Shown here: positions 4,201 to 37,441 of the stretch, piece by piece
Position numbering within the stretch: position 1 is the stretch's first letter
Layout: every line of letters starts with the position of its first letter
Source of the DNA: Oscillospiraceae bacterium
GTDB lineage: Bacteria > Bacillota > Clostridia > Oscillospirales > UBA929
DNA length: 37,736 bases
Direction of reading: 5' to 3'
NCBI GenBank assembly: GCA_031271665.1
Contig: JAISVI010000073.1
Location: forward strand, 1-37,736
Notes under the pieces: model-generated
Told to the model about the DNA's origin: nothing
Database searches by the model: none
Seen by the model: only the letters and a program-made list of their open reading frames with translations
Position numbers and translations under genes: made by a program

Positions 4201-5015
4201 GGGGCGCGGGTATGCCGAAGCCTTTGGCGGTGATAACCGCCTTCCCCGGAACGAACAGCGAGCTTGACACCGCCCGCGCGGTACGCAATGCCGGGGGCGC
4301 GGCGGACGTCGCGGTTATAAGAAATCTAAAACCCGAATGGATTGACGAATCAGTAAATCTGCTTTGCGAAAAGATAAGCGCCGCGCAGATGCTTATAATC
4401 CCCGGCGGCTTTTCCGCGGGGGACGAGCCGGACGGCTCGGCCAAATATATCGTGTCGTTTTTCCGCAATCCCCGGGTAAGCGAGGCGACGCGCGCCCTTT
4501 TGGCTCGGGGCGGGCTTATCCTTGGAATATGCAACGGGTTTCAGGCGCTTATTAAGCTTGGGCTTGTACCGTTCGGCGACATCCGAACGCCGGACGAATC
4601 CTCTCCCACGCTTACCTTTAACAATATCGGGCGGCATCAGTCGCGCTATGTCTTCACGCGCGTCGCGTCAACGCTTTCGCCGTGGCTTTCAAAGTGCGCG
4701 CTGAACAAAGTTTACGCGCCGCCCATATCGCACGGCGAGGGGCGCTTCGCCGCCTCGCCGCAAACGCTTCGCTCTTTGGCAGAGACCGGGCAGATCGCCC
4801 AGCAGTACTGCGACGCCTTTGGCGTTCCTAGCATGGACATAAGGCATAACCCCAACGGCTCGGACTGGGCTGTCGAGGCCATATCAAGCCCGGACGGGCG
4901 CGTGCTTGGCAAAATGGCGCATAACGAGCGCACCGGCCCGAATGTCGCGATAAATATCGCCGGAGATAAGCTTCAGCCCATTTTCGAGGGCGGCGTCGGC
5001 TATTTCAGTCTGTGA
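1254..5015 (+). CDS. purL: Phosphoribosylformylglycinamidine synthase, single-chain PurL
   Basis: The fourth step of purine synthesis: FGAR + ATP + glutamine to FGAM. At 1253 residues this is the large fused type, containing PurS-like, synthetase and glutaminase parts. Visible motifs include HNHPTEIEPFGGAAT in the synthetase half and a C-terminal class-I glutaminase beginning near residue 990. The catalytic triad is Cys1093 (GICNGF), His1223 and Glu1225 (MAHNER). Translation starts at TTG 1254, preceded by GGGAGAGG. The reading frame carries an unusual insert at residues 895-920 (3936-4013) that contains a dispersed repeat also found at 18369-18391. The stop codon overlaps the GTG start of the next gene, so the two are probably translationally coupled. 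Confidence 0.96.
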   Translation: MGKVFRVAVEKKEAFRSEAARLLSDMRGFLGVAADSLRIFNVYDVERFGEDADAAQLESAFYTVFSEPVTDNIWPHGLPALDPDTRILCWEALPGQFDQRADSCAQCLQLLWGGERPLVRYIRAAAFTGIDEGGLDRLREHLINPVDSRETTLEMPETLRAVFDPPAATPVCAGFRELDGAGLDGFIREHALAMDRADAQCLRDYMRLENRDPTLAEVRVVDTYWSDHCRHTTFLTRLTDIEAEDSRAAESLALYREHMPDGAVTLMRIATAGMKALKRAGKLPNLDESDEVNACTVKVKLKLAGGGQEDWLLLFKNETHNHPTEIEPFGGAATCIGGAIRDPLSGRAFVYQAMRVTGAADPRALLKDTIPGKLPQRVLTVTAANGYSSYGNQIGLATGHVTEIYHPGYAAKRMEIGAVVGAAPARNVVREQPLPGDAVILVGGRTGRDGIGGATGSSMTHNKQSVTECAAQVQKGNAPEERKLQRLFLDPQVTKVVKRCNDFGAGGVAVAVGELADGLCIQLDSVPKKYEGLGGAELAISESQERMAVVVRREDVDFFIGKAAGENLEATVIAEITQEKRMRMVAGGETIVDLSREFLNSNGAEKTARAVIPKAQAPAPRAWEKAATLAEGWLLLASDLNYCSQKGLVERFDGSVGASSVLMPHGGSEMLTPAQSMAALLPADGAETASVMSFGFDPQISQSDPFGGAVYAVVTSVAKLAACGVSPDTAYLTFQEYFPRPGSDPLRWGLPAAALLGAFHAQMGLGVASIGGKDSMSGSFENMDVPPTLVSFAVGTADAQDIISPEFKAAGNPVYLFSVPAKENGLPDYPALREMWTNFSALARKGFIKSAWAIETGGVSGGIIKMALGNNVGFAFDDGFSGFFDAPWGGILAECSGRGVPGGSETDGDVSGGRQNAAPTGAVLVGYTQEKAELTQRNARAPLASLLVAWTAPLEDVFPTRPADADTASVPVIASAKAPAVFRGAGMPKPLAVITAFPGTNSELDTARAVRNAGGAADVAVIRNLKPEWIDESVNLLCEKISAAQMLIIPGGFSAGDEPDGSAKYIVSFFRNPRVSEATRALLARGGLILGICNGFQALIKLGLVPFGDIRTPDESSPTLTFNNIGRHQSRYVFTRVASTLSPWLSKCALNKVYAPPISHGEGRFAASPQTLRSLAETGQIAQQYCDAFGVPSMDIRHNPNGSDWAVEAISSPDGRVLGKMAHNERTGPNVAINIAGDKLQPIFEGGVGYFSL
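3991..4013 (+). repeat. Dispersed palindromic repeat copy inside purL
   Basis: These 23 bases are identical to 18369-18391 in the rapZ/murB intergenic region. The core is an inverted repeat GGCGG-cagaa-CGCCG followed by CCCTACA. The same CGCCCCTACA end occurs in the larger palindrome at 7373-7451. Within purL the element is read in frame (SGGRQNAAPT) without a stop, at a place where PurL relatives, as I know them, have a short loop. Confidence 0.75.
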
Positions 5016-27427: not shown

Positions 27428-27518
27428 GGAGAAGTACTCAAGTGGCCGAAGAGGCGCCCCTGCTAAGGGCGTAGGCCGGGAAACCGGCGCCGGGGTTCAA
27501 ATCCCCGCTTCTCCGCCA
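27428..27518 (+). tRNA. tRNA-Ser (anticodon GCU)
   Basis: A 91-base serine tRNA with encoded CCA. The acceptor stem GGAGAAG/CTTCTCC is perfect, the anticodon loop is CTGCTAA (anticodon GCT, reading AGC/AGU), there is a long variable arm (GCCGGGAAACCGGC) and a T-loop GTTCAAATC. Phage genes begin soon after its 3' end, which makes this tRNA the likely integration site; the matching right-hand copy is not in the window. Confidence 0.96.
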
Positions 27519-27595
27519 GATTATACGCTATCCGAACCCCGATTTATCTTTGTAAATGGGCTGTTCGGAATGGTTGTCTATAGATAATAGGCAAC

Positions 27596-27635
27596 AAAAA
27601 ACGCCCGCCGCTGTAATTGTAGCGGCGGGCGTTTT
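27596..27635. terminator. Bidirectional intrinsic terminator
   Basis: An 11-pair GC stem CGCCCGCCGCT/AGCGGCGGGCG with an 8-base loop, flanked by AAAAAA on the left and TTTT on the right. It can end the tRNA transcript (plus) and any late phage transcript running in on the minus strand. Confidence 0.85.
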
Positions 27636-27657
27636 ACTTCTGAAAGGCGGGTTGATT

Positions 27658-27873
27658 ATGCTTGAATTACTGAATATTATTAAGTCTGTCCCTGCGGAAA
27701 ATTTTGCGGCTTATGGGGTCGCGGTCGGCTTTAATGAAATTTATGCCGCTTCGGGAATGAATAAGGACGATTTAAGCCGCGAACTCCGCAAGTTGGAAGC
27801 AAGCGGAAAAATTAAGTTGTGCGTCAATGAATTTAACGACGAAACTTTAATTATTGCCGTCAAGCTCGTTTGA
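27658..27873 (+). CDS. 71-aa hypothetical protein, possible winged-helix
   Basis: The only plus-strand gene of the phage part. Start at ATG 27658 (MLELLNIIKSVP) with AAAGGCGG upstream; the longer open frame runs through the terminator and is rejected. The pattern NEIYAASGMNKDDLSRELRKLEASGKIKL resembles a small winged-helix domain (helix, turn, recognition helix, wing). It ends ...IIAVKLV and overlaps the end of the next minus-strand gene by 27 bases. A small regulator is possible; the family is not recognised. Confidence 0.6.
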   Translation: MLELLNIIKSVPAENFAAYGVAVGFNEIYAASGMNKDDLSRELRKLEASGKIKLCVNEFNDETLIIAVKLV

Positions 27874-28560
27874 GCGCGGGCGCGTGTTCGCGGCATAGAT
27901 TGAAGCGTAAGTTAAATAGCTTATTATCCTGTCCGCGTTTATTGTGTCCGGCTTTTCCCCGCTGACAAGCTCAACGATTTTCATAAATCGTTCAAGCTCG
28001 TTGTAAACCATATCAAAATCCGCGTTGTTGTAAAAATTTTCAATGATTTCTTTTGATATGGGTATGGCTTCTTCTGCCGTCAAGGTAATATTGCGCGGCT
28101 TTCGCTCCATGTCAATCCCTCCGAATACACCCGCCGGGTTATCTTGAAGCGTATCAGGCGAATTTTCGTTGACGATAACCCGAACCAACACATACGGGCA
28201 AGCCGGGTCAATGTCGATTATTACCCGCTTCGGTGTTTTGTTGTTCTCCCGGCGCAAGCTCATACTCGACGCCCCCAAGCGCAACGTCCTACTATCTGTT
28301 ATAGGCGGTATTTCTCCCGCTTGTAACGCCTTGTTTACCGTGTCAAACTCTGTTTCATCAATGGCGCAACTCATAAGCCGCTCGCAACCCGCAATATGTC
28401 CGAAGTGCTTTTCAGCTTCCGCAACCTTGCGGGCTTTTTCTTTGAAATAGTCAATATAAATGTCCTCATAGCCGGGGGCTTCCACCCGCTCGCGGCATTT
28501 ATCGCATATATCAAGCCCCGCTTCTTTGGGGCAAGTGCATTTCCAACCGTTATTGTTCAT
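27847..28560 (-). CDS. Hypothetical phage protein with N-terminal Cys cluster
   Basis: A 237-residue protein not recognised. Near the N-terminus is a cysteine set (C9-x-C11-x8-C20-x2-C23 in CTCPKEAGLDICDKC) that could bind a metal. The rest is mixed alpha/beta and acidic. GGAGG lies just before the ATG at 28560. It is separated from the holin gene by a strong terminator, so it may be expressed apart from the lysis genes; a late-acquired (moron-like) gene is an inference. Confidence 0.65.
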   Translation of the reverse strand: MNNNGWKCTCPKEAGLDICDKCRERVEAPGYEDIYIDYFKEKARKVAEAEKHFGHIAGCERLMSCAIDETEFDTVNKALQAGEIPPITDSRTLRLGASSMSLRRENNKTPKRVIIDIDPACPYVLVRVIVNENSPDTLQDNPAGVFGGIDMERKPRNITLTAEEAIPISKEIIENFYNNADFDMVYNELERFMKIVELVSGEKPDTINADRIISYLTYASIYAANTRPRSNELDGNN

Positions 28561-28577
28561 GCTGTAACCTCCAAATA

Positions 28578-28614
28578 AAGCCCGCCGCGGCTCGTTGTGA
28601 ACCGTGGCGGGCTT
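28578..28614 (-). terminator. Intrinsic terminator after the holin gene
   Basis: The stem AAGCCCGCC/GGCGGGCTT, extended by further CGG/CCG pairs, is followed on the minus strand by TTTATTT. It lies 30 bases past the holin stop and should end the late/lysis transcript. Confidence 0.85.
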
Positions 28615-31590: not shown

Positions 31591-32067
31591 TTACTTTCCT
31601 GTAAAGAAGTCCGCATAAACGCGGCGTATTGTGTAAGGCGGGTATTGCGGGGGCGGTCCCGTTGAGCGGCGCAAGAGCTTGTCCCATGCGTGAATAAGCC
31701 AACGCCCGGTATCTTCCGCCCATATCGCAAAGGGCATTAGGAAAACCCATAGAACGGCGTACCCGGCGCAAACTTGCCCTAAGATGTTGCCGAACTGCCC
31801 GGAATAGTCCCATACCCCAAGCCCAAGCCATAGATTAAGAACGCAACCGCTCAAAAACTCGACAATCAGGACGATAGCCGCGCCTATGAGCGATTGCACA
31901 ACAACGGGGGCGCGGTAGAATCGGGGAATCTGATTGATAAGCCCCACCAACACGCCGCAAAGCCCGCCGACAACGAACATTGACGGGTGCGTGTGTCCGC
32001 GCCACAATACTTCAATCGTGACGTAAGCCGCCCCCAAGACAATCCATAATATCAATATTCTTTTCAT
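31591..32067 (-). CDS. Multi-span membrane protein (CmpB-like, PF06541 type)
   Basis: A 158-residue integral membrane protein with four to five hydrophobic segments. The motif VVQSLIGAAIVLIVEFLSGCVLN and LGVWDYSG recalls the putative ABC-transporter type IV (CmpB) family, which also occurs in phages of Clostridia. Its phage function is not known. The ATG overlaps the stop of the preceding gene by four bases. Confidence 0.65.
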   Translation of the reverse strand: MKRILILWIVLGAAYVTIEVLWRGHTHPSMFVVGGLCGVLVGLINQIPRFYRAPVVVQSLIGAAIVLIVEFLSGCVLNLWLGLGVWDYSGQFGNILGQVCAGYAVLWVFLMPFAIWAEDTGRWLIHAWDKLLRRSTGPPPQYPPYTIRRVYADFFTGK

Positions 32068-32549
32068 GCCGTACCGCCCGCCGCCGCAAGAATCGCGCCC
32101 ATACTCTCCGCAAGGTCGGCGGGTAACTCCGCGCCGTATGTTATCGCGTCAAGCTGTTTAAGGGTCGCTTTCTTAATCCATGCGTTTACATGGTTGCAAT
32201 ATGTCCTATGATAGAACACATGCGCCGTTGCCGCCGCCGCGATTGCGCCGAACTCCGCGGCGGGGTACATGCGGCAAAGCTCCCCGTCTGCGTGGTAGGG
32301 GACCGCTGCCGCGCCCTCTTTGATTGTCTGAAGCTGTGCCATAAGCTCCGTTTGGTCGTGTTCGGTCAAACTGTAATGCTTGCCGCCAACCTCCACCCCG
32401 GCATAAATGGCGGTGGTGCAAGCCGCGCCGATTTCCGCTTTCTTGACGGCGCGAACTTGCGTAACGCTATTCCAGTTGTCGGGCGGCGTGATTCCCATAT
32501 TGACAAGCCGCCGGTCCCTTATGCTGTCCTCTTTATGCTGTACGCTCAT
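32064..32549 (-). CDS. Probable tail-fibre accessory protein (DUF4376-like)
   Basis: A 161-residue protein with YHADGELCRMYPAAEFGAIAAAATAHVFYHRTYCNHVNAWI near its centre, a pattern I associate with DUF4376-like proteins downstream of tail-fibre genes. It overlaps the end of the variable-protein gene by four bases. A role in fibre assembly or attachment is inferred only from position. Confidence 0.55.
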   Translation of the reverse strand: MSVQHKEDSIRDRRLVNMGITPPDNWNSVTQVRAVKKAEIGAACTTAIYAGVEVGGKHYSLTEHDQTELMAQLQTIKEGAAAVPYHADGELCRMYPAAEFGAIAAAATAHVFYHRTYCNHVNAWIKKATLKQLDAITYGAELPADLAESMGAILAAAGGTA

Positions 32550-34276
32550 TCAAAATTACCCCCTAACCCGGCAATGAACAAATCGCCCTGGGCGGTTTGC
32601 CTGTCTGCCTTAATTCGGATATTGAAGCCCCAATTCGTCGCGGTTTTGGTCGTGTTCGTGAGGAAGAACTTGCTCCCGGCGATAACGGCGGCGGTCACGT
32701 CCTCCCATGTGGGCGTTGCGTCGAAGCCGTTGTTGCACACTTCAACGCTAAAGGTCGCGCCCGCGGGAATCTGCCGGGACACGTTCATAATCCCCTTCGT
32801 AACGGCGGCGTCGGCGGAAAGCGGCGTTGCAAGTGTAAACTCTATTTGCGTTTCGCTCTTGCTGAAGGTATATTGCCGGGTTGCGGTATCGCCGTAATTG
32901 TCCGTGACGGTGATTGTTAAGGTGTGCGAACCGTTGGTAATGGTGCGCCATTCGTCCGCCGTGACGCTGAAAGTATTTGTCGCGCCGGACGTTGCGGTAA
33001 AGCTCCGCTTCTGTTTGGCGTCGATTTTCTCAACAACCGTCAAGGTTTTTGTAATGCCGCTGTCCGGGTTCGTCACGTTGTAGGTCTGCGAAAACGCGCC
33101 CGTTTTCGCGCCCAAGTCGGCGTTGCTCCCGCTGATGGTCGGCGGGTTGCTGTTTATTACCGTTTGAACGCTCGCGGTCGTGTATGCGCTTTCGGCGTTG
33201 TTGTTGTCGTAGGCTTTCACCCGGTATTGAACCGAAGTCAACCCCGCCGTTATGGTGTCGGTATATGTGCGGTTGATACCCTTGTAAATTTGCGCGAACG
33301 CGCCCCCGTTGGTGGCGCGTTCGGCGATATAGCCGCTTATGCTCCCGTCCGAATCCGTGGACGCGCCCCAACTTATCGTTGCGGACTTCCCGCCCAACGC
33401 GGTTGTCGGCGGCGTTATGCCGTTCGGCGCGGTCGGGGGCTGATTCCATATAATCGTGTATGCGCCGTCACTATCAACGGAATCAGATACCAAGATTTCA
33501 GATGACAAATTACAAAGCGGACGAACGCCCCAGTGGCCGTGGTACGCGGTGTAGTAGTTCAGCGTCCCGGACGTGTAGACGTTGCGGACGATGTACGAAT
33601 TGGCGGCGGTGGGTGTTCTTAACCACCAATACCAAGCCGCCCCGGTGTTGAAGCTCGAACTTGTATAGTTACTGTTCGCCACGGCTTCGGCGGTCGGGTA
33701 CGCAAGCCGGGAAGTGTTGTCGCTGTATGCCGCTAAAATTGAACCCTCGGCAACGCTGTTTTCGTTGGTAAGCCCAACCTCTGTATTGGACGCAAGAAAG
33801 ATTTTGTCTGTAGCGGTTTCGCTCCCGCCGCCGTCCGTGACGGTGTTCTTCGCCACGGTTAGGGTTGTTTCCATTAGAGCGGCTTTCAGGCTCGCGGAGA
33901 AGCCCGCTAAAAAGCCCGCTTCCGTGTCATAGCCATTATAGTTTGCGCTGTTGGCGGTCGTCGGGGGCGCGTCTGCGGTATGTTGGGCGGTATACCATGC
34001 GTTAGCCGCCTTGTCGCTGTTTAGCCATTGCCGCAAGTTGCTATGTATATAGCGGTTGTTGCCGTAATTCTTGCGGTTGGCGTCGCTGTTGCTCGCTTCC
34101 TTGCCGTCAAAGGCTTTGAGGGCAATAATTTTGTCCGTCTGCAACGTGACGGAATTTGCGGGGTAGCCCGCATGGTTCTTGTCAACAACTCGGAAAATAA
34201 TAGGTTTCCCGAAGTAAAGGCTATTGGCTTCCTTTACCTTTGCGCCGACAAGCAATGCGCTTAACTTTTGGGGCAT
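32546..34276 (-). CDS. DGR variable protein, probable phage receptor-binding protein
   Basis: A 576-residue protein. Residues about 20-275 resemble DUF6273, a C-type-lectin-like/formylglycine-generating-enzyme-like fold (NNRYIHSNLRQWLNSD, WYWWLRTP, GVRPLCNLSSEI). The variable repeat encodes T221-L254, with substitutions relative to the template at 223, 229, 234, 241, 242, 243, 246, 248 and 249. Beyond it are a fibronectin-III domain (about 280-370), an Ig-like domain (about 375-470) and a C-terminal beta-rich region. The ATG at 34276 overlaps the RT gene by 16 bases with GAGG upstream, so the two should be co-translated. DGR targets usually have the variable repeat at the C-terminus; here 322 residues follow it. 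Confidence 0.9.
   Translation of the reverse strand: MPQKLSALLVGAKVKEANSLYFGKPIIFRVVDKNHAGYPANSVTLQTDKIIALKAFDGKEASNSDANRKNYGNNRYIHSNLRQWLNSDKAANAWYTAQHTADAPPTTANSANYNGYDTEAGFLAGFSASLKAALMETTLTVAKNTVTDGGGSETATDKIFLASNTEVGLTNENSVAEGSILAAYSDNTSRLAYPTAEAVANSNYTSSSFNTGAAWYWWLRTPTAANSYIVRNVYTSGTLNYYTAYHGHWGVRPLCNLSSEILVSDSVDSDGAYTIIWNQPPTAPNGITPPTTALGGKSATISWGASTDSDGSISGYIAERATNGGAFAQIYKGINRTYTDTITAGLTSVQYRVKAYDNNNAESAYTTASVQTVINSNPPTISGSNADLGAKTGAFSQTYNVTNPDSGITKTLTVVEKIDAKQKRSFTATSGATNTFSVTADEWRTITNGSHTLTITVTDNYGDTATRQYTFSKSETQIEFTLATPLSADAAVTKGIMNVSRQIPAGATFSVEVCNNGFDATPTWEDVTAAVIAGSKFFLTNTTKTATNWGFNIRIKADRQTAQGDLFIAGLGGNFE
33514..33615 (-). repeat. DGR variable repeat (VR)
   Basis: 102 bases matching the template at 35479-35580 except for nine changes, all where the template coding strand has A: AAC to ACC (twice), ATC, TAC (three times), CAC (twice), and AGG to TGG. 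The 3' end on the coding strand is an 18-base invariant GC-rich stretch before the sequences diverge, in the position of the initiation-of-mutagenic-homing (IMH) site. No BPP-1-like cruciform is obvious immediately after it. Confidence 0.97.
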
Positions 34277-35310
34277 TTTTCCTCACACTCCTTAAATAGT
34301 TTCGTGAAATATGCGTCCATATCGCGGACAAGATGGTAAGTGTTCCCGTGTTGCGCGTGTCCCCTCCAACTCTGATATGAGCTTTGAACCTTCTTAAAGC
34401 TCAACCCGCCCTTGACAAGCAAGCCCTTCATGCGTTTAAGCCGCCGCCGTGCGTTGTTCTTGCTCTTGCGGCGAATCTTGCGAATGACTTTGCCCGTTTC
34501 GGTCAAATAGGTGTGGAAGCCTAAAAAGTCAATGCCGTTCCGCAATGGGAAAAGGTTTGTCTTGTTGTTGAGCGATAGCCCCAACTCGCTTACGCGCTTT
34601 TCAATTTCTCCGCGGCATTTCTGCAAGTATTCCCTGTCCTCATGGATTAAGAAAAAATCGTCCATGTAACGCCCGTAATACTTGATTCCCAACTTTTCCT
34701 TTATGAAATGGTCTAAGCCGCTAAGATAGAGAACGGCGAACCATTGGGAAGTTTGGTTGCCTATCGGGATTCCGGGGCTTTCGGTTGAATCAATAATTAA
34801 ATCTATCAACCACAATGTATCTGTATCGGTGACGAACTTTCGCAACTGCTCTTTTAGAACGTCGTGCCGAATTGAATAGAAATATTTGCTTATGTCACAT
34901 TTGAGAACCCAACCGTCCATGCCGTGAAGCCTGTAATATTGGCGCATGAACCCTTCCAAGCGGTCAAGCCCGAAGTGTGTTCCCTTGCCGCGCTGTGTGG
35001 CGTAGTTGTCAAGGATAAAGGATTTCGACAACCGTTCTTCAAGCACGTTATCGCAAATTGAATGATGAACGATTTTGTCTTTGAACGCCGCGGACATTAC
35101 CGTTCGCCGTTTCGGTTCGTAAACCTCAAACGTCAAGTACGGGGACATTCTATAGGTCTTTCCCGTAAGCATGACATGGAGAAGGTGGAGGGCTTCAAGC
35201 AAATTCGCTTCAAACTTTGCGACGCTATCTTTCCCGCGCTTTCCCCGGCGTGATTTCTTAAACGCGGTGTGCAAGCTCTTGAACCCGCACACCTTTTCAA
35301 AGTCTGTCAT
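34261..35310 (-). CDS. DGR reverse transcriptase
   Basis: A 349-residue group-II-intron-like RT without maturase or endonuclease domains. Motifs are LKCDISKYFYSI (Asp139, domain 3), the DGR-type GIPIGNQTSQW (180-190; SQ instead of the SP common elsewhere), YMDD (215-218) and a basic thumb/C-terminus (about 272-300). It makes cDNA from the template repeat RNA with errors at adenines. I chose the ATG at 35310 because AGGAG lies nine bases upstream; an in-frame TTG at 35379 lacks such a site and would add 23 residues. The stop lies inside the variable-protein gene start. Confidence 0.95.
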   Translation of the reverse strand: MTDFEKVCGFKSLHTAFKKSRRGKRGKDSVAKFEANLLEALHLLHVMLTGKTYRMSPYLTFEVYEPKRRTVMSAAFKDKIVHHSICDNVLEERLSKSFILDNYATQRGKGTHFGLDRLEGFMRQYYRLHGMDGWVLKCDISKYFYSIRHDVLKEQLRKFVTDTDTLWLIDLIIDSTESPGIPIGNQTSQWFAVLYLSGLDHFIKEKLGIKYYGRYMDDFFLIHEDREYLQKCRGEIEKRVSELGLSLNNKTNLFPLRNGIDFLGFHTYLTETGKVIRKIRRKSKNNARRRLKRMKGLLVKGGLSFKKVQSSYQSWRGHAQHGNTYHLVRDMDAYFTKLFKECEEKCPKS

Positions 35311-35383
35311 ATAAAAATGCTCCTTGTCGCTTATAGCCTTTACCTTGCCAAAAATTGCGCAATGTATCAGCGTCAACAATCAT
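35297..35383 (-). CDS. 28-codon leader ORF overlapping the RT start
   Basis: ATG 35383 (MIVDADTLRNFWQGKGYKRQ...) with AAAGGCGG ten bases upstream ends at a TGA inside the first codons of the RT gene (ATGACAGACTTTGA), in a different frame. Its ribosome-binding site is part of a perfect inverted repeat CCGCC-TAAA-GGCGG. It may couple or throttle RT translation; expression as a peptide is unproven. Confidence 0.35.
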   Translation of the reverse strand: MIVDADTLRNFWQGKGYKRQGAFLYDRL

Positions 35384-35478
35384 GTATTTACCGCCTTTAG
35401 GCGGCGGCGGTGATATGCTTTCCTTTATTGGTGGTCCTCTGCTTTCAGCGTATAGCTTACTCGTTCGCGGTTTCCACT

Positions 35479-35580
35479 AAAGCGGACGAACGCCCCTGTT
35501 GCCGTTGTACGCGTTGTTGTTGTTCAGCGTCCCGGACGTGTTGACGTTGCGGACGTTGTACGAATTGGCGGCGTTGGGTG
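35479..35580 (-). ncRNA. DGR template repeat (TR) within the Avd-RT intergenic RNA
   Basis: A 102-base non-coding template between the avd-like gene and the RT gene. Read in the VR frame it contains ten AAC codons plus one AGG; eight AAC codons and the AGG differ in the VR. AAC mutated at its adenines can never give a stop, the usual DGR design. It contains 28 adenines on the coding strand, nine of them changed in the VR. The wider 35311-35608 gap also carries the leader ORF and hairpin above. Confidence 0.96.
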
Positions 35581-35608
35581 ACTAACAAAGCATACCCCAA
35601 GCAAGAAA

Positions 35609-36013
35609 TTAGCGCGGAATCCCGCGCCGCTCTTTCTCTTGCTTCTTCCATTTGGCTGTCATGTACTTTACATCAAGCACATATTTAGCCCAATGCTGAC
35701 TACTTTCAATGCTGATACACCCCCTTTCATGTGACAATTCTATGAAAAACAAAACTGTCTTACATAGCGTAAGTATGCGCCCCTGTAACCGTTGCCGCTC
35801 CGCGAACTCCCGCGGGTCGGATAGCTGTAACTCGTTGGCTTCCTCCACACACTCGAATATGTCAAGCGTTCGGTCGTAAAGCCGTTCGGTCAAAGCGCGG
35901 TATTTCTTCGGGTATCTCTTTTCCGAAGTCATGGCGAAAGTGTGTTTTACAAGGTCTTTCGCCTTCGTGATAATCAGAAATTCGGACGGCTGTTTATTAT
36001 CGTTTTGCGCCAC
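35609..36013 (-). CDS. avd: Avd-like DGR accessory protein (four-helix bundle)
   Basis: A 134-residue helical protein of the bAvd/23S-rRNA-intervening-sequence-protein type: FLIITKAKDLVKHTFAMTSEKRYPKKYRALTERLYDRTLDI, then long helices ending in a basic tail. In the Bordetella phage DGR the Avd pentamer binds RT and template RNA and is essential for mutagenic homing. The start is GTG 36013 with GAGGTG eight bases upstream; it overlaps the previous gene by 17 bases. It ends 29 bases before the template repeat. Confidence 0.88.
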   Translation of the reverse strand: MAQNDNKQPSEFLIITKAKDLVKHTFAMTSEKRYPKKYRALTERLYDRTLDIFECVEEANELQLSDPREFAERQRLQGRILTLCKTVLFFIELSHERGCISIESSQHWAKYVLDVKYMTAKWKKQEKERRGIPR

Positions 36014-36236
36014 TAATACACCTCGTTTTGCGGATTTCGTTCAAGTCCTCCGCGTCCCCGTCAAAATAAAGCCCGTCTTTGCCTATGAAAAGAACCGCCC
36101 GTTGCCCGGTGTAGGACGTTCCGCAAATTATTATTTGCTCTTTGTCCTCACATAAGGCGCATGGCGATTCTAATTCAATAAACAAACTCCCGATTATACA
36201 TGAAAGCTCTTTTGCGGTACACGCAAATTTTAACAT
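35997..36236 (-). CDS. 79-aa cysteine-rich hypothetical protein
   Basis: The ATG at 36236 overlaps the stop of the fibre-like gene (ATGTTAA) and the end overlaps avd by 17 bases, so it is packed between the fibre and the DGR. It has six cysteines (6, 13, 26, 29, 38, 73), with C26-x2-C29 in LESPCALCEDK. The family is not recognised; it may be a phage protein or part of the DGR cassette. Confidence 0.6.
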   Translation of the reverse strand: MLKFACTAKELSCIIGSLFIELESPCALCEDKEQIIICGTSYTGQRAVLFIGKDGLYFDGDAEDLNEIRKTRCISGAKR

Positions 36237-37441
36237 TCCACCCTTGCCCTCTCGTTATTCCAGATTCCTTTGACAAGGTTTAACCCTGAAAGGCTGTCAA
36301 ACGCCACGGTGAAGGGGTTGCCCGTGATGTTGTTGAAAAGGCTATCTTCAATCCGGGCAAGCCGGGTTTCGTATTGGTTCGCGTTCTCGCTTGCCGTTCC
36401 CGCAAGCGTCAAGGCTTCGTCCGCCGTGTCCGCGCCCTCGGTCCAACGGGCTTTGTCCGCCGCCGTAACGTGAATGTCCATGTCCTCAACGTGAAGAACC
36501 AATTCGCCCATAGCCGTATTGATATTGTCCATTTGCCCCGGCTGTGTGTGAAGCCCCATGTCCCCGATATGGGCGTAAAGCTCCGTGGCGATATACGCCC
36601 GCCCGCTCTGAAGCTGTGTAATGGCGTCGGCTATGCTCTCCGCGCTCCCCGGCGTAAGAAAGATGTTTTGCGCCGTGTTCGTTTCCATGAACGGGACAAA
36701 TACCCTATTCACCTTGTCGTAGTAGTGCGCCAAGAAAAAGTATATCGGCGCGGCGGGCGTTTCGGGGTCGGTCGGGTTGTCCGGGTCCTCAATATCGCCG
36801 GGGCTTGCGGGGTCAATCGTGCTTTGTCCCGTTGGCTTTAGCCATATTTCGCAAGGCTCGGTTGGCTCTGCTTCTGATATGAGGATAACGGGAATCTTGT
36901 TCACGCCCTGGGCGGCAAGGATTTCTATAACCTCTTGAACGCTGTCCGCCCCGATTCCGCTTACGCTGTCGTTATAGCTGATTTCGTCCGCTGTGGTCGA
37001 ACGGACGATTGTTGCCGTGACGTTTGCCGCTGTTCCGATTGCCGTTACAATGTCAATCGTCTTTTCGATAACGTCACTTCCGCCCACGGGCGTTATTTTC
37101 TCCGCGAAGTCCCCGGCGTTGCCGTAACAATAAAGAACCTCCGCGCCGGAATCGTCCTCCGCGAAAAGCGCAAGCTCGCGGTAAAAAAATTCGGTTTGAA
37201 TGTCGGCGTTTGAGAACACGCCGCCAATAACCGCCGTACCGTCGGCGTTGATTCTCTTTTTGGAAATAGGCACGTTCACAACGCCGTGAACAACGTCCGT
37301 CATGTCCCGCGGCGCGGTATCGGCGGGAAGGTAGCCGTCACCCATAACAATCCGTGTAAAGTTTGTTCTGCCCCCTAAATAGGTTTTGGCAATGAGAAGC
37401 CGCCCGCCGTTGGTAATGTCGCTGTTAATAAATGCGCTCAC
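36230..37441 (-). CDS. Phage tail-collar fibre-like protein
   Basis: A 403-residue protein. The N-terminal 150 residues follow the tail-collar fibre pattern (FINSDITNGGRLLIAKTYLGGRTNFTRIVMGDG, VNVPISKKRINADGTAVIGGVFSNADI, FFYRELALFA), which attaches fibres to baseplates. The middle has a Pro/Asp-rich low-complexity segment (about 215-232) and the C-terminal part is helical (LYAHIGDMGLHTQPGQM). GTG 37441 is preceded by AGGAGGAATAAAC. It lies upstream of the DGR and may carry the variable protein on the virion; that is inference. Confidence 0.8.
   Translation of the reverse strand: MSAFINSDITNGGRLLIAKTYLGGRTNFTRIVMGDGYLPADTAPRDMTDVVHGVVNVPISKKRINADGTAVIGGVFSNADIQTEFFYRELALFAEDDSGAEVLYCYGNAGDFAEKITPVGGSDVIEKTIDIVTAIGTAANVTATIVRSTTADEISYNDSVSGIGADSVQEVIEILAAQGVNKIPVILISEAEPTEPCEIWLKPTGQSTIDPASPGDIEDPDNPTDPETPAAPIYFFLAHYYDKVNRVFVPFMETNTAQNIFLTPGSAESIADAITQLQSGRAYIATELYAHIGDMGLHTQPGQMDNINTAMGELVLHVEDMDIHVTAADKARWTEGADTADEALTLAGTASENANQYETRLARIEDSLFNNITGNPFTVAFDSLSGLNLVKGIWNNERARVEC

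Follow-up and report, generated by a model that had tools for sequence, protein, structure and literature searches.

The window analysed here is the entire contig JAISVI010000073.1 (37,736 bases) from a 2.03-Mb metagenome-assembled genome (MAG) of an Oscillospiraceae bacterium (GCA_031271665.1). Its minus strand bears a diversity-generating retroelement (DGR). In the order of transcription, the accessory gene avd is followed by a template repeat (TR), a spacer, the gene of the reverse transcriptase (RT) and the target gene. The target gene contains the variable repeat (VR), and its 5' end overlaps the 3' end of the RT gene (Table 1). The element is almost certainly a phage-encoded DGR of the tentaclin type that is carried by a prophage. 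The initial annotation had placed a complete DGR with adenine-specific retrohoming at 33514-36013. All of its parts were found again; the interval was too short, since the target gene continues to 32546.

Table 1. Position and properties of the features discussed in the text
Feature	Positions	Strand	Remarks
avd, accessory variability determinant	35609-36013	minus	134 aa, GTG start
Upstream arm of the TR-enclosing RNA helix	35587-35598	minus	GGGGTATGCTTT; pairs with 35409-35421; covariation
Template repeat (TR)	35479-35580	minus	28 A; encodes PNAANSYNVRNVNTSGTLNNNNAYNGNRGVRPL in the VR frame
TR-RT spacer	35311-35478	minus	168 nt; conserved in the family; holds the downstream helix arm
Downstream arm of the TR-enclosing RNA helix	35409-35421	minus	AAAGCATATCACC, one bulged A; covariation
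DGR reverse transcriptase	34261-35310	minus	349 aa when started at ATG 35310; the frame is open from 35379
Target gene, tentaclin	32546-34276	minus	576 aa; DUF6273/C-lectin-like domain, then three Ig/Fn3-like domains
Variable repeat (VR)	33514-33615	minus	codons 222-254 of the target; nine differences from the TR, all amino-acid changing
About 30 nt past the VR	33484-33513	minus	GTAATTTGTCATCTGAAATCTTGGTATCTG; codons fixed across relatives; putative cis-acting retrohoming element
tRNA-Ser	27428-27518		borders the prophage end, after the chromosomal part
Tail-fibre-like protein	36230-37441	minus	phage region

Cassette anatomy and adenine-specific variation

The TR and the VR were aligned without gaps over 102 nt and differed at nine positions, and the identity broke off abruptly at either side. 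All nine differences are an A in the TR on the coding (minus) strand (five A>T and four A>C), and none of the 74 non-A positions differed. The probability that all nine fall on the 28 A among 102 positions is 3.0e-6. The coordinates, the gapless alignment and the A-only pattern had already been described in the initial annotation and were reproduced. In the protein, eight Asn codons and one Arg codon are replaced by T, I, Y, Y, Y, T, H, H and W. When the whole MAG was searched with the TR, two copies only were found, the TR itself and the VR.

Related loci were gathered from viral contigs and bacterial genomes on the basis of RT similarity. Among them, the Oscillibacter sp. 1-3 and ER4 loci L008 and L011 contain this cassette too. 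In the 46 loci with a detectable TR/VR pair, taken together with the window, the VR differed at 654 of the 1415 template adenines, compared with 14 of 3235 other positions, which bears out adenine-specific retrohoming. Nearly all of these adenines (1411 of 1415) are at codon position 1 or 2. Four pairs of loci share an identical TR: their VRs differed at 10 (L025/L026), 19 (L030/L032), 21 (L045/L047) and 19 (L054/L055) positions, each of them a template A, without a single difference in the 298 nt upstream and the 300 nt downstream of the VR. The pair L010/L034, with one difference in the TR, had 20 VR differences, all at A, and unchanged flanks. This VR-only variation among near-identical phages matches the prediction of continuing mutagenic retrohoming. 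Since relatives with identical cassettes vary in the VR only, the lineage is active. The initial annotation had also taken the lack of any non-A change as a sign of recent activity. This argument did not hold: at the family background (14 of 3235), 74 sites would be expected to carry about 0.3 non-A changes, and a zero therefore says little on the recency of this copy.

In one relative, the Tyzzerella MAG locus L014, two copies ending at 4780 and 5420 match the TR at 38/39 and 33/39 non-A bases and are near the ends of two open reading frames (ORFs), and this DGR may have two targets.

The RT has the motifs IPIGNQTSQ, which fits the DGR pattern [IVL]GxxxSQ, and YMDD, and was matched by RVT_1 (Pfam) and by PHROG 1423 at 2.5e-130. 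Its best match in the Protein Data Bank (PDB) was the BPP-1 DGR RT 8ub7 (E 6.7e-38), whereas the best group II intron RT reached 6.3e-10. In a maximum-likelihood tree of DGR, group II and retron-like RTs, the window RT was found in the clade of the BPP-1 Brt with a support of 95/96, and the group II intron and retron RTs were outside the DGR clade; several deep branches are long, which leaves their order uncertain. The start codon of the RT is most likely ATG 35310 rather than the TTG at which the ORF opens, because the relatives share this ATG, preceded by AAGGAG as a ribosome-binding site. A small ORF between the TR and the RT (28 codons from 35384) was not kept in the relatives and was discarded.

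Avd was matched by PHROG 3206 'Avd protein of DGR' (E 1.1e-20), and its match to the NCBIfam Avd model was below the cut-off of that model (E 5e-4). The AlphaFold 2 (AF2) model is a four-helix bundle (pLDDT 88.8). Foldseek matched it to Avd 4dwl and to chain B of 8ub7 with a TM score of 0.70 on the query, a probability of 1.00 and E-values of 0.08-0.17; one 4dwl chain reached a TM score of 0.86 on the target besides the 0.70 on the query (probability 1.00, E 0.17). The S23/IVS-type proteins 2gsc and 2rld obtained better E-values than the Avd structures. The reading of these two genes as an RT with YMDD and GNQTSQ and an Avd-like four-helix protein, made from the letters alone, was upheld by these searches, and the tree set the RT with Brt and apart from group II and retron RTs.

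The target gene encodes a tentaclin. Pfam domain DUF6273, reported to be C-lectin-like (PMC10743442), was detected at residues 41-258 (E 1.3e-35) and spans the VR, and the whole protein is matched over its full length by PHROG 10993 'Hoc-like head decoration' and, with 52% identity, by the proteins of nd4 and nd12. The AF2 model (pLDDT 85) is confident in the core; the top of the fold search was without a named C-lectin structure. The VR is internal, in the 5' half of the gene, and is followed by 321 codons. In the relatives, about 217, 320 or 415 codons come after the VR (for example, L012, L018 and L041). These steps of about 100 residues fit two, three or four Ig-like modules, as if gained or lost whole. 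In the L018 target, the last domain appears frameshifted or truncated. A location on the capsid is putative and would follow only from the name of PHROG 10993; T4 Hoc has no lectin domain and a different anchor (PMC10743442), and here tail-fibre-like genes adjoin the target.

A covarying RNA helix around the template repeat

RNAalifold on the relatives indicated a long-range helix between bases just before the TR and bases of the spacer. The alignment comprised 26 loci from two clades and was built without reference to structure. In this 12-bp helix compensatory changes were observed at 8 of the 12 pairs and 98.7% of the cells were paired; the columns had been chosen from pairing in alignment members, which favours the percentage paired, but not compensatory changes in unrelated arms. 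The covariation score was 0.61 compared with 0.27 in shuffles (0 of 500 reached it), and the signal was gone after a slide by one column.

For distant DGRs, the best contiguous pairing was scored, with the upstream and downstream arms crossed between DGRs as the null. The mean pairing score of 26 DGRs was 24.0, against 16.3 for the crossed arms (0/20000 permutations), and for the 16 more distant DGRs it was 21.8 against 16.0 (0/20000); DGRs share kinship, and the permutation figures are not strict probabilities. The downstream arm started at +51 to +70 after the TR in 23 of the 26 DGRs, compared with 39% of the crossed pairs. Most DGRs examined (window 35409-35598, loci L071-L117) have a TR-enclosing helix at about −15 and +58. 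Long helices were found in the archaeal virus ANMV-1 (13 bp), the Roseburia phage Shimadzu (12 bp) and FP_Brigit (14 bp), and four Vibrio or Aeromonas phages have helices of 7-9 bp with differing sequences. BPP-1 has a weak 8-bp candidate at −19/+63, which, like that of some other DGRs, is not significant alone. In the cryo-EM structure of the BPP-1 complex, the RNA on both sides of the TR is reportedly essential, and the helix may be visible there.

Sequence similarity or base composition could also give rise to the pairing as a by-product. For the window by itself, the pairing of the two arms was not significant against shuffles (21/200), the single-sequence fold of TR and spacer was no better than shuffles (z −0.35), and related sequences are able to exceed shuffles without any structure. 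Duplexfold free energies compared with shuffles were uninformative and Rfam gave no match. Because single-sequence folding is unremarkable, only the comparative evidence counts for the helix. This evidence, namely the compensatory pairs, the signal that is lost with a slide by one column and the helices that recur at corresponding places in DGRs whose arm sequences are unrelated, makes such a by-product very unlikely. No report of TR-enclosing covariation was found in a literature search that had subscription papers outside its reach.

In BPP-1, the spacer folds and recruits RT-Avd, and cDNA synthesis, primed by a spacer adenine, is terminated by a motif at the avd 3' end (PMC12875486). The upstream helix arm sits where this termination motif would be, and by analogy it probably acts as the cDNA stop.

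A candidate target site past the variable repeat

BPP-1 and several phages have a GC-rich stem capped by a GRNA loop at 4-34 nt after the VR, and this hairpin is important for retrohoming (PMC3240598). The 75 nt after the VR were scanned for stems of at least 6 pairs with a 4-nt loop. Among 17 DGRs with a terminal VR, a GRNA-loop hairpin was observed in 8, including BPP-1 (0.24 expected), with the loops GATA, GGTA or GAAA. Among the 36 loci with an internal VR, including the window, it was observed in none (0.55 expected), and the best stem with a 4-nt loop after the window VR had only 2 bp. In nd4 and nd12, the second VR, which is near-terminal, was likewise without the hairpin, so that its loss tracks the lineage and not the internal position alone. 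An 8-bp inverted repeat in the window (CTGATTCC, with a 31-nt loop) was rejected as a BPP-1-like hairpin since it is not conserved in the relatives and has no GRNA loop. DGRs without the hairpin tended to have a longer RNA helix (Mann-Whitney p 0.006), but kinship among the loci confounds this apparent association, and no link is drawn from it. There was also no difference between the initiation of mutagenic homing sites IMH and IMH*, as the 3' parts of TR and VR are identical up to the boundary.

In 16 tentaclin genes with 50-64% protein identity, each of the residues S259, I261, L262, V263 and S264 is encoded by a single codon in all genes. The codon entropy at the invariant residues 255-270 was 0.33 compared with 0.90 elsewhere, and 0 of 20000 resamples were as low. 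In a second clade the effect past the VR was weaker (0.58 compared with 0.85, p 0.0016). The two target genes of nd12 and nd4 share 26 of 35 nt after the VR and are then at chance level; the proteins are alike there too. The fixed codons may stem from a shared ancestry of the lectin end, from exchange between the targets or from some other constraint. We favour a candidate cis element that is embedded in the coding sequence past the VR. In a wider and tentative model, to which we give somewhat less than an even chance, the DGRs of the tentaclin lineage would find their internal VR hairpin-free by a coding element of about 30 nt and, in addition, have an unusually strong TR-enclosing helix that sets the cDNA end, the helix being general to DGRs including those of archaeal viruses.

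The prophage, the rival explanations and the proposed mechanism

The first part of the contig, up to about 27.4 kb, consists of bacterial chromosome genes, among them those for a DnaE-type polymerase, MurB, HPr kinase and a hybrid histidine kinase. It is followed by the tRNA-Ser gene; no integrase was found beside it (27428-28600), and a second tRNA-Ser 3' end, as an att site, was not found in the MAG. Phage genes on the minus strand occupy the contig from about 28.6 kb onwards, including those for an endolysin with phage lysozyme and amidase domains and for a DUF4376 protein that resembles the tail fibre PHROG 1348. The G+C content of this stretch is 52.5% compared with 55.9%. A gene in the late region (31591-32067) matches a putative ABC-transporter type IV family (PF06541, 5.9e-9) and PHROG 20274 of unknown function. 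The contig terminates at 37736 within the prophage, in its tail region.

The published tentaclin DGRs of the gut phages nd4 and nd12, for which an internal VR is described, a rare arrangement, are the closest known systems (PMC10743442). They have the same order avd-TR-RT-tentaclin, the VR in the 5' half of the gene, the N-terminal DUF6273 (C-lectin-like) domain followed by three Ig-like domains, and the TR-enclosing helix; the nd12 RT is 66% identical to the window RT. They differ in that they reside in another prophage and another bacterium and possess a further target gene whose VR is close to the 3' end, whereas only one VR was found in the window MAG. The Faecalibacterium phages FP_Brigit, FP_Mushu, FP_Toutatis and Lelie (PMC5883640, PMC11792537) also have phage DGRs with Ig-domain targets, which are Hoc-like or have DUF6273, and share with the window the likeness to PHROG 10993. 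Their RTs are 44-46% identical (Brigit, Toutatis, Lelie), the number of Ig-like domains differs, and Avd homologues were reported for Mushu and Lagaffe only (PMC5883640). With BPP-1 the window shares Avd, the TR, a homologous RT, the adenine-specific transfer from TR to VR and a target with a putative C-lectin domain. In BPP-1, however, the target is first and not last in the cassette, the VR is at the 3' end of the gene, the GRNA-loop hairpin and the IMH/IMH* difference are present, and the TR-enclosing helix, which is clear in the window lineage, is a weak candidate. The position of the VR, the lack of the hairpin and the lack of an IMH/IMH* difference are not features that define DGRs as a whole.

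Several observations weigh against an active tentaclin DGR in this prophage. Its VR has no A>G change among nine, although 385 of the 654 changes in the family including the window (59%) are A>G; at the family rate the probability of this is about 3e-4. Selection on this VR or a differing bias of its RT could explain the missing A>G. The DNA hairpin that follows the VR in BPP-1 is absent. The contig end in the tail region, together with the absence of a PF03354 TerL from the MAG (the search covered this TerL family, and a TerL of another family may be present), means that the prophage could be incomplete. Activity was observed in the lineage and is presumed for this particular copy.

One may suppose that the DGR was once active and is now inert, with the VR as the frozen last product in a decayed prophage. 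A single VR state is visible, and only 9 of the 28 template A are changed (32%), which is under the family mean of 46%; the missing PF03354 terminase and A>G changes would also fit. On the other hand, the frames of avd, RT and target are open and undamaged, with ribosome sites and a catalytic YMDD, no non-A site differs between TR and VR, and the 13 nt spacer features and the helix are kept, so we regard an inert element as improbable. As RT, target and repeats are neighbours, the two repeats could also come from a duplication and have diverged by ordinary drift or by gene conversion without a retroelement. This has hardly any probability left, since the mismatches are only at A of one strand and all change an amino acid, and the 46 relatives behave likewise. 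We hold to the phage-encoded DGR of the tentaclin type. Beyond the initial annotation, the internal position of the VR, the tentaclin as the target, the TR-enclosing RNA helix and the lack of the hairpin past the VR, with a candidate target site of fixed codons, were observed.

We propose the following mechanism, in which priming, termination, anchoring and the ligand are drawn by analogy. Following BPP-1, the region avd-TR-RT-target would be transcribed on the minus strand with the late structural genes, and the RNA upstream of the TR and the spacer RNA would fold into the helix closing around the TR. Avd and RT would bind the folded RNA, and cDNA synthesis would be primed in the spacer, pass through the TR with errors at adenines and probably stop at the upstream helix arm. 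The mutated cDNA would then replace the VR in the tentaclin gene and so diversify a 33-residue patch of the putative C-lectin domain. The Ig-like domains may form a stalk, with the last one as the virion anchor, and the phage population would display many binding variants towards bacterial or mucosal ligands.

The element itself is one more tentaclin DGR in a prophage, whereas the comparison of the helix and the target site is of wider use and awaits experiment. The near-universal C-terminal VR has been explained by the need for cis-acting DNA elements outside the coding sequence (Roux et al. 2021, PMC8144416). Internal VRs break this C-terminal rule, and the absence of the hairpin in 36 of 36 loci together with the fixed codons makes the question of targeting directly testable. 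The covarying helix gives phylogenetic support, from bacterial and archaeal-virus DGRs, to the RNA control of cDNA synthesis that has been studied in BPP-1. The helix around the TR is also a search signature by which a TR may be found in DGRs whose VR is unknown.

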